38,027 nucleotides of DNA. Origin: Nitrospirota bacterium (GTDB lineage Bacteria; Nitrospirota; 9FT-COMBO-42-15; HDB-SIOI813). Made by a program: the position numbers and the translations under genes. Below the pieces are notes generated by a model, which saw only the letters and a program-made list of their open reading frames with translations, was not told the origin of the DNA and searched no databases. Position 1 is the stretch's first letter, and every line of letters starts with the position of its first letter. Positions 3,619-28,080 of this stretch are shown in pieces. The stretch covers positions 1 through 38,027 of the forward strand of contig JADLDG010000016.1 of assembly GCA_020846775.1 (NCBI GenBank). The letters are read 5' to 3'.

Positions 3619-3689
3619 AATCCGGACATTTCTATTTTGGTAAAAACAGGACATTTCTAAATTGGCTTGACACAGATTCTGTTTTTCTT

Positions 3690-4022: not shown

Positions 4023-4393
4023 ATGAGTTGGTATCTTGCAGCTCTAAAAAAATACGCGACATTCTCGGGGCGAGCGCAACGCAGTGAGTATTGGTATTTC
4101 TTTCTATTTTATTTTCTTATTTACATTGGCCTTGCCCTTGTTGATGGCATACTTGGGTCTTTCAGCGTAGAGGATGGCATGGGTCTTCTAAGCGGCATTT
4201 TAAAATTGGCATGATTATCCCATCAATAGCTGTCGTCGTCAGGAGACTTCACGACACAAACCGGAGTGGTTGGTGGTTGCTAATTGGTCTAATTCCGCTA
4301 ATAGGAGGCATTGTCCTAATAGTTTTTACTGTCCAAGATAGCCAGCCAGGCCCAAATCAATTTGGGCCTAATCCAAAAGAAAATGCCGCCTAA
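4023..4393 (+). pseudogene. DUF805 membrane protein, split by a one-base frame change
   Basis: Codons 4023-4214 encode the first half (SWYLAALKKYATFSGRAQRSEYW, one to two membrane segments, ending GILKLA). A second frame 4211-4393 encodes the rest (IIPSIAVVVRRLHDTNRSGWWLLI and the QPGPNQFGPNPK tail). Together they make a normal-length DUF805 protein of about 123 residues. The family is a small inner-membrane protein of unknown function that I associate with integron cassettes. The two frames overlap as ATGA, so translational coupling of two half-proteins is possible, but a single-base deletion is the simpler reading. The stop codon lies inside a GCCTAAC box, as expected for a cassette gene. 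Confidence 0.8.
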
Positions 4394-26397: not shown

Positions 26398-27114
26398 ATG
26401 TACAAAGTAATTATGAGAAGAAACTTATTCGCAGTATCATCCACAGTCATCTTCTTGTCAGCCTCCCTGCTTTTCACCGGTTGTGCTGGAAGCAACAAGA
26501 CCGATACCCTATCTAAAGCGGATAGTCTTACTGATAGTCTTAAAGAGCTGTACGATGCAGATGCACTCATAAAGAAGGCTGATAAGCTTTTTTCGGAAAA
26601 GGATTACCCTGGGGCCATTCAGGAATACAAACGCTTTCTCGAGCTGCATCCTATTCATAAGTCAGCCGCTTATTCCCAGTATAGGATAGGACTTTCATAC
26701 TTCAAACAGATCAAGTCAATAGACAGAAACATAGAACCTGTTCAAAAAGCACTGAGTGCGTTTGATACTGTTGTAAAGGTCTACCCTGACAGTGATTACA
26801 CTAATGACGGTATGGAAAAAATCAGGATATGCCGGGACAAATTAGCAGAGCGGGAATTCTACATTGGCAGCTTTTATCTTCACAAGGAAGATTACCTGGC
26901 GGCCATCGTAAGATTTAATAATATCCTGACAGATTATAAAGACACATCGGTTGCTGAAAAAACACTATACAATCTTGGAATCGCATACAGGTCTTCAAGC
27001 AAAGAGGACAAGGCTAAAGAAACCCTACAGCACCTTCTGACTCTCTATCCTGAGGGCAAGTATAAGGAAGATGCCTCGCAACTGCTCGCCAAACTGACCA
27101 GCAATTTACAATAA
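26398..27114 (+). CDS. BamD-like outer-membrane assembly lipoprotein (TPR repeats)
   Basis: A lipoprotein of 238 residues. Its signal peptide ends in a lipobox (LLFTGC) and the mature protein is made of TPR-like repeats (AIQEYKRFLELHP, ALSAFDTVVKVYPDS, AIVRFNNILTDYKDT, AKETLQHLLTLYPEG). The arrangement matches BamD/YfiO of the beta-barrel assembly machine, although other TPR lipoproteins look similar. The Met at 26413 (MRRNLFAV) gives a more compact signal peptide and may be the real start, since the first ATG lies within a promoter-like -10 (TAATAA). Confidence 0.8.
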   Translation: MYKVIMRRNLFAVSSTVIFLSASLLFTGCAGSNKTDTLSKADSLTDSLKELYDADALIKKADKLFSEKDYPGAIQEYKRFLELHPIHKSAAYSQYRIGLSYFKQIKSIDRNIEPVQKALSAFDTVVKVYPDSDYTNDGMEKIRICRDKLAEREFYIGSFYLHKEDYLAAIVRFNNILTDYKDTSVAEKTLYNLGIAYRSSSKEDKAKETLQHLLTLYPEGKYKEDASQLLAKLTSNLQ

Positions 27115-27134
27115 TAAATTACTAAGCATAATTA

Positions 27135-27251
27135 GAACGTCAGAAATGGCTTTCTACAAGGCGGACGACGAAGGGAACCGCAGGCGTACTTTTAAGTACG
27201 TTGAGGATTTCCTGAGGAGTCCAACGCCGTAGAAAGACATTTATGACGTTC
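27135..27251. repeat. 117-bp long near-palindrome (MITE-like) between convergent genes
   Basis: The outer arms GAACGTCAgAAATGgCTTTC and the complement of the right end agree at 21 of 23 positions. Inner pieces also pair: GGCG with CGCC, GAC with GTC, AGG-type segments and a GTACTT/AAGTAC core. The whole unit could fold as one long hairpin. It fills the gap between the BamD-like gene and larE, extends over the larE stop codon, and could serve as a bidirectional terminator. I recall closely similar units recurring in other genomes. Confidence 0.7.
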
Positions 27252-28080
27252 GTATCCCTTCATTCATGCTGCCGGTTCGGTATCCCTCAAGATCAAGTGT
27301 AACATAGGTAAATCCGAATTCTTTGAACTTCTTTACAATCTTATCTCTCAACGAGAGGTCTTCCATGAACTGATTTAACTCATAAACAGATAACTCGACG
27401 CGTGCCACCTCTCCATGGTACCGGACGCGGAATTGTTTAAAACCAAGCTGACGCAGAAATGTCTCACACATACCAACCTGCTCTAATCTATCTTCTGTAA
27501 TCTCTGTACCATAAGGAAACCTTGAAGAAAGACAGGCAAAGGAGGGTTTATCCCAGTTAGCGAGTCCAAGCATCTTGCTTATTTCCCGGACCATTGCTTT
27601 TGTAAGTCCTGCCTCTACAATGGGACTCCGTACCCCGAGTTCCCTGGCAGCCTCTGTTCCCGGCCGGTAATCTGACAGATCGTCAATAGTAGTCCCGCAG
27701 GCTATATGGTCAATATGTAACTCATTAGCTATAGTCTTCAGTTTATCAAACAACTCCATCTTGCAATGATAACAACGGTCAGCATTGTTTTTTGAAAAAT
27801 CAGCAATCTCTAATTCATTGGATTCTATAAGGATGTGCCTGATACCTATGGAAAACGCTATCAGCCTGGCATCTTCTATTTCATAGGACGGGTAGGTAGG
27901 TGACGTGGCTGTTACAGCGACCGCCTTACAGCCAAGGGAGTCATAAGCAATTTTTGCTATAAGAGAGCTGTCAATCCCTCCGGAAAAAGCGACTACAAGA
28001 GATCCCATCGCTTCTATAATATCTTTGAGTTTAAGATATTGATCCCGGACATGGGGTTCGGGATGAGGCTGGTTATTCAC
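27241..28080 (-). CDS. larE: ATP-dependent sacrificial sulfur transferase LarE
   Basis: A PP-loop pyrophosphatase of 279 residues. The PP-loop reads AFSGGIDSSL (31-40), with NNADRCYHCK (C103, C106), DLSDYRPGTEAARELGVRSP and KPSFACLSSR, where C183 is at the sulfur-donor position. LarE sulfurates the pyridinium cofactor of the nickel-pincer nucleotide used by lactate racemase-type enzymes. The larB and larC partners and a racemase are not in the window. The start is GTG at 28080, overlapping the stop of the upstream M16 gene as GTGA. Its last codons and stop come from the palindromic repeat. Confidence 0.93.
   Translation of the reverse strand: MNNQPHPEPHVRDQYLKLKDIIEAMGSLVVAFSGGIDSSLIAKIAYDSLGCKAVAVTATSPTYPSYEIEDARLIAFSIGIRHILIESNELEIADFSKNNADRCYHCKMELFDKLKTIANELHIDHIACGTTIDDLSDYRPGTEAARELGVRSPIVEAGLTKAMVREISKMLGLANWDKPSFACLSSRFPYGTEITEDRLEQVGMCETFLRQLGFKQFRVRYHGEVARVELSVYELNQFMEDLSLRDKIVKKFKEFGFTYVTLDLEGYRTGSMNEGIRTS

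Follow-up and report, generated by a model that had tools for sequence, protein, structure and literature searches.

The available parts of PMC2229807 and PMC10969869 describe ERIC sequences as 127-bp, intergenic, palindromic, multicopy elements of Enterobacteriaceae and Vibrionaceae that are co-transcribed and affect mRNA stability depending on their orientation. In the same partial texts, the Correia (NEMIS) elements of Neisseria are short inverted repeats whose transcript stems are cut by RNase III, and the available parts of PMC2229807 and PMC3049150 assign them terminal repeats of 24 to 26 bp, a target duplication, and TA termini. Pneumococcal BOX elements are dispersed structured repeats, sometimes located near riboswitches and genes, with a modular boxA-boxB-boxC make-up (PMC3049150, available part). 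For Geobacter metallireducens, the available part of PMC2700814 reports multicopy intergenic families with a central palindrome, and it gives GRCGTAGCGCTGCTACGCC for one family of 24.

The element described here is a palindrome located between bamD and larE in a 38,027-nucleotide stretch of Nitrospirota DNA (the window). Like ERIC, as far as the available texts describe it, it is short, intergenic, palindromic, and multicopy, a likeness judged by description. The element often precedes tRNA genes, whereas neither PMC2229807 nor PMC10969869 contains the word tRNA. It shares with the Correia elements, as described in part above, the format of a short inverted repeat, but two of the features given there were not seen, since its ends vary and no consistent duplication was found at its flanks, and it was not assigned to them. 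Its resemblance to the Geobacter families, which are also intergenic and palindromic, was judged by description. Both BOX and the element are dispersed structured repeats, but the modular make-up reported for BOX in the available text differs. In sequence, BOX may also resemble the core of the element. REP and REPIN sequences are imperfect, strand-specific hairpins near the 3' ends of genes; the element is likewise an imperfect, strand-specific hairpin near gene ends, and no association with Y1 transposases was found for it. Integron attC sites have conserved boxes at their ends and a variable center; by inspection, the element has variable ends and a fixed center and is not such a site.

We found no description of the element in the open-access library searched, including searches with 10- and 11-mers of its core, for which none of the matches listed concerned a bacterial repeat by title, although this does not prove that none exists. 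By analogy, the element, which is not in Rfam (no family at gathering score; only 17- and 16-bit matches, against gathering scores of 60 and 105), may broadly work like ERIC or NEMIS. We consider the window copy, with a probability of about 0.55, to be a settled copy of a non-autonomous, mobile, MITE/ERIC-like palindromic repeat, for which we infer a mobilizer acting in trans and a role as an RNA hairpin.

The palindrome between bamD and larE

The element is an imperfect palindrome of 117 bp at positions 27135 to 27251, and we call it type 1; the plus strand is taken as its sense strand on the basis of the conserved G.A loops. It lies between convergent genes. The bamD-type lipoprotein gene (26398 to 27114, plus strand; TIGR03302, 170.7 bits) ends 20 nt before the left end of the element, and larE (27241 to 28080, minus strand; LarE, TIGR00268, 326 bits) has its stop codon facing the right end. 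The preliminary description had the palindrome occupy the entire intergenic gap, which is incorrect given the 20 free nucleotides between 27114 and 27135. Its statement that the palindrome reaches into larE and provides the stop codon was accurate: the last 11 bp of the element (27241 to 27251) are also larE coding sequence and stop, with the TAA at 27241 to 27243 on the minus strand. The outer stem consists of a left arm (27135 to 27157) and a right arm (27229 to 27251), both on the plus strand, which pair at 21 of 23 positions with two mismatches, the same count as given previously; the best arm match in five base shuffles was 18 of 23. No second palindrome of this kind (23-nt arms, span of 46 to 160) was present in the window.

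The preliminary description had also suggested folding the RNA. With 20-nt flanks (27115 to 27271), the fold has an energy of -60.3 kcal/mol, compared with a shuffled mean of -32.7 (z, -8.35), and none of 200 shuffles folded as well. The earlier view of a single long hairpin thus holds in that the interior pairs, but the stems are split by internal loops, which are conserved across the copies. Internal-loop motif A is formed by CAAGG (27157 to 27161) and AACGCCG (27223 to 27229), both on the plus strand; in the mixed alignment A3, the 5' half varies little or not at all, and all 33 rows have the ACG of the 3' half. Further inward, GACGA (27167 to 27171) and GAGGA (27214 to 27218), also on the plus strand, make up a tandem G.A internal loop, where each of the four mismatch positions has G.A or A.G in 20 to 23 of 23 copies; in one copy, both bases of its central pair differ, giving A-U in place of C-G. 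The apical core hairpin, motif B (GCAGGCGTAC-loop-GTACGTTGAGG; 27180 to 27206, plus strand), is near-invariant in alignments A1, A3, and A4 and was used for the core pattern searches.

A promoter-like site, TTTACA-16-CATAAT (27105 to 27132, plus strand), matches the consensus at 10 of 12 bases, a consensus match only; it lies on the sense strand and ends 2 nt before the element. Two promoter-like sites were found, against a shuffle mean of 0.6. Elsewhere in the window, inverted repeats are present at 2259 to 2288 and 2336 to 2365 (80% complementary) and at 2277 to 2298 and 3624 to 3645 (95%) and are possibly the ends of a mobile element.

Copies in the genome, in Nitrospirota, and in other phyla

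The element is not a single-copy sequence; it has relatives and compensatory changes in its stem, contrary to what would have refuted the preliminary description. In its own genome (G000), blastn identified nine places, and covariance model R1, built from 23 copies, gave 26 matches at E values up to 1, merging to about 20 places; the long hairpin also matches R1 on its other strand, and strand duplicates were merged by hand. Seven of 30 aligned copies were left out of A1 and R1, namely, L040, which has a core deletion, and six copies of genomes G004 and G005 with loops longer by 14 to 15 nt; L051, which runs into N, and partial matches had already been excluded. The places in this genome are of two types, of which the second (type 2; for example, L077 and L083) has the same architecture and other arms. 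From its alignment, A4, 5 of 31 sequences (L006, L089, L090, L348, and L386) were dropped because their right arm is replaced.

Several copies have additional features. In L037 (contig C42 of G000, positions 173 to 411), a type 1 element directly before a tRNA-Ser gene carries a type 2 palindrome within its loop region. In L089, L090, and L348, the type 2 right arm is replaced by a small repeat with GGGTACCC and AATGCAATGGGT. Type 1 copies of G004 and G005 (e.g., L064 and L067 to L071) have a common left flank of ~25 to 30 nt and longer ends of the form CTAATAC...GTATTAG, which may represent an asymmetric left extension of the element that is absent from the window copy. In locus L284 of G005, a further palindrome with AGGCGTAC and AACGCCGC motifs lies ~10 nt 5' of larE, at the opposite end of the gene.

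R1 matched all nine other genomes analyzed from the same class at E values up to 0.01 and at least 159 of 395 genomes in a Nitrospirota sample (E up to 0.001, strict filters). G057, taken as Nitrospira defluvii, had 40 matches at E values up to 0.01. The core, GGAGGCGTA...TACGTYGA, recurs in several other phyla, mostly inside hairpins. A core pattern search in named genomes returned at least 116 stretches; among the matches listed, most were from Nitrospira, and the others were from Deltaproteobacteria, Rokuibacteriota, Methylomirabilota, Gemmatimonadetes, Planctomycetota, Clostridia, and Treponema vincentii. R1 covered the core at E values up to 0.001 in 16 of 19 non-Nitrospirota loci, a partly circular test, as all 19 were chosen by the core; of the other three, L173 (E, 0.0035) and L156 (E, 0.07) scored lower and L184 had no match. 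A looser core pattern matched 130 times in 14 genomes, each previously known to hold one match, whereas a reversed control pattern had no match in any of the 14. Judged by eye, the core formed a hairpin in 14 of the 17 loci folded from this search, and the core strand folded better in 16 of the 17 (exception, L411).

A collection of viral contigs contained no exact core match, and no match to the element was found in plasmids. The single phage match (26 bp; E, 0.5) was taken as chance.

Fold, covariation, and conserved loops

In type 1 (23 copies), 98.4% of the cells are paired and 13 of 43 pairs show two-sided changes, giving a covariation score that none of 500 shuffles matched. In type 2 (26 copies), 95.4% of the cells are paired and 30 of 50 pairs have changed on both sides. 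When partners were slid by 1 to 3 columns as a control, pairing fell to 29 to 47% of cells. The type 1 G.A mismatches are found in 20 to 23 of the 23 copies at seven positions, and two further mismatch positions vary; all 26 type 2 copies have G.A and A.G as well as TGACG in their loops, and 22 of them have C.C. Near-invariant across types and genera are the CAAGG/ACG loop and the apical AGGCGTAC/GTACGTTGA; the ends of the element vary between types and copies, whereas the center is conserved. The sense strand gave the more stable fold in all 10 copies that were folded on both strands.

Eight comparisons between species at the same locus (seven loci) yielded 42 two-sided and 13 one-sided changes that still pair, against 6 pairs broken in one or both copies. 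At the larE site, six pairs differ from those of the sister species, five by two-sided changes and one by a one-sided change that keeps the pair; none is broken, and the G.A loops are fixed. The suggestion of a structured RNA fits these data, in that the fold evolves under structural constraint (42 kept two-sided changes versus 6 broken pairs). As judged from these alignments, the stem is constrained: the hairpin stems change in matched pairs, and the internal loops are fixed.

The same data bear on a purely DNA-level palindrome, in which template switching copies one arm onto the other, the core is the site of a mobilizing protein, and the RNA has no role. The type 2 middle stem would agree with this, being almost purely Watson-Crick though its sequence differs from copy to copy, as would the constant relation between the strand of the element and its motifs, which also holds where the genes run antisense. 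Matched changes could also have been moved in blocks by gene conversion between copies. However, the set mismatches have been kept and not corrected, as seen in the seven type 1 G.A positions and the type 2 C.C position. In the two curated alignments, G-U cells outnumber A-C cells by 52 to 5 and by 88 to 7, which points the same way; two core columns contain 35 and 48 of these G-U cells, and G-U still exceeds A-C outside those columns (17 to 5 and 40 to 7). We use this strand test with care because automatic pairing gave a weak G-U excess in Nitrospira-type copies (85 versus 51) and the opposite ratio in type 1 (15 versus 28). On balance, the DNA-only explanation is rather unlikely.

Presence and absence at orthologous sites

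The bamD-larE gap holds the element in three species of one genus (G000, G001, and G002), whereas the end of larE is free of it in six relatives (G003, G004, G005, G006, G007, and G009); G008, with no full larE match, is outside this comparison. By eye, no element separates larE from bamD in G003, where the two stop codons overlap. Since these six relatives have no element in the gap, the bamD-larE element is best read as an insertion. Among the three carriers, pairwise identity at the DNA level is 85.5 to 87.2% for the element and 76.9 to 78.1% for larE; the element has therefore been either retained under constraint or homogenized. A second case is the leader of tRNA-Val, which contains the hairpin in G001 and is short and without it in G000 and G004.

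The proposal that the palindrome could be a MITE fits these observations: the element is short (117 bp) and multicopy, is without transposase coding capacity, and is present or absent at orthologous sites, being missing from the same gap in the six relatives.

Position relative to tRNA, tmRNA, and stop codons

Among 126 listed copies, 30 are followed at 3 to 16 nt by a same-strand tRNA gene, and 96 are not beside a tRNA. Four genomes account for 22 of 59 copies, at 3 to 10 nt (G000, 9/20; G001, 10/21; G004, 1/13; G007, 2/5), and three more for 8 of 67, at 5 to 16 nt (G003, 3/11; G005, 4/33; G009, 1/23). On the other side of the element, tRNAs within 16 nt are missing from all listed copies but one, a truncated G001 copy whose match overlaps the 3' end of tRNA-Val. 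For the 9 of 20 copies in G000, random placement was estimated at about 6e-30, a figure that leaves aside any selection on the sites at which insertions persist. Three further copies, in G000, G001, and G002, end 14 to 15 nt upstream of tmRNA. By a strict core search, which misses degenerate copies, a core lies within 170 nt upstream of 9 of 38 tRNAs in G000 and 11 of 36 in G001. The leader of tRNA-Ser(tga) has a type 1 element in G000, G001, and G007 and a type 2 element in G004. A search of 30 N. defluvii loci found no tRNA. An inverted repeat made up of AAATAGGGACAGCGACTATTTATT and its complement also recurs near tRNA genes (leaders in L325 and L362) and elsewhere (L245, near 4150 to 4250).

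The right end of related copies is often next to a feature, which is either the 5' end of a tRNA or tmRNA gene or a facing stop codon. Of 60 elements collected by regular expression in 132 loci, mostly from Nitrospira, 58 were judged, with genes defined by a simple length rule; a facing stop codon lay within 15 nt of the right end in 34 of the 58 loci and of the left end in 3. The larE stop, facing the right end of the window copy, follows the pattern of these mostly Nitrospira loci, and in the element's own Nitrospirota family, many copies away from tRNAs also have the right end facing a stop codon. In other phyla, the counts within 15 nt are 8 of 23 (right) and 4 of 23 (left); they are noisy and do not include 5 further cases at contig edges.

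Mobilization and termination

Neither a transposase nor another mobilizer was found for the element, the genes looked for being those of Y1 transposases. The flanks have no consistent direct repeat that would mark a target-site duplication, and the leaders are too diverged for boundaries to be placed. Movement by a RAYT (Y1) transposase, as in REP/REPIN systems, would suit a strand-specific hairpin, a fitting substrate for a single-strand enzyme, and Y1 genes are present in 44 of 61 relatives, with one in the element's own genome. However, G004 (95% complete) and G007 (100%) carry copies and have no Y1 match, none of 15 Y1 loci searched had an R1 match at E values up to 1, and no core motif accompanies the RAYT gene of the own genome in the 4.3 kb read. 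With RAYT missing from two carriers and no element near the Y1 loci, we regard membership in REP/REPIN, and RAYT as the mobilizer, as very unlikely. The RAYT-like Y1 gene of the own genome (L245, contig C24 of G000, positions 1479 to 2348) is flanked by its own GGGGTCAGGTCTTG/AAGACCTGACCCC repeats, and a pair similar to these precedes tRNA-His of G001.

A bidirectional transcription terminator for bamD and larE is highly improbable: the convergent position and the strong hairpin would favor it, as would A-tracts and T-tracts seen by eye beside the inner stem in many Nitrospira copies, but there is no terminator-like site in 26950 to 27450 and no T-run after the stem of the window copy, and related copies are found between two co-directional genes, upstream of a same-direction gene, or, for tRNA-Val of G001, between a promoter-like site (TTGACA-17-TAGGAT) and the tRNA, where termination would silence the gene downstream. 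The terminator named among the options in the preliminary description is thus not supported at this locus.

Proposed role and implications

The reading we prefer remains that of a MITE/ERIC-like mobile repeat with an RNA-hairpin role. As far as sequence can tell, copy number, presence and absence, structural constraint, and docking are all features of the element. The mechanism would have two parts. A factor encoded elsewhere would move the element in trans by recognizing the folded strand, as suggested by loci in which the flanking genes run antisense and the motifs still stay on their strand. Against the preferred reading, the flanking gene in N. defluvii is antisense to the conserved strand in most loci, so a local transcript cannot explain the fixed strand-specific loops there, and most listed copies (96 of 126) are not beside a tRNA. 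Transcribed copies would form double-stranded RNA hairpins marking a processing or stability boundary, and the cut at the hairpin would probably be of the RNase III type, by analogy only with Correia/NEMIS and ERIC. Such a cut would free a tRNA from the transcript upstream of it, and at the window copy, it would trim the 3' ends of the bamD and larE mRNAs.

A wider reading, which we offer tentatively and think somewhat improbable, is that the element belongs to a bacteria-wide, previously undescribed class of strand-specific folded palindromes with two fixed loop motifs and covarying stems, mobile through the folded strand and inserted in a set orientation at stop codons and tRNA 5' ends, which in this Nitrospirota class would serve as a recurrent 5'-leader hairpin aiding tRNA and tmRNA processing.

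The constant place and orientation before tRNA and tmRNA genes, kept in the tRNA-Ser leader by elements of different types in different genera, suggest a tie between a mobile repeat and the maturation of stable RNAs, which can be tested directly. One conserved folded core links scattered palindromic repeats of several phyla, making the search for a recognizing factor practical. The copies also offer natural material for testing if selection or the copying of one arm from the other keeps palindromes intact.
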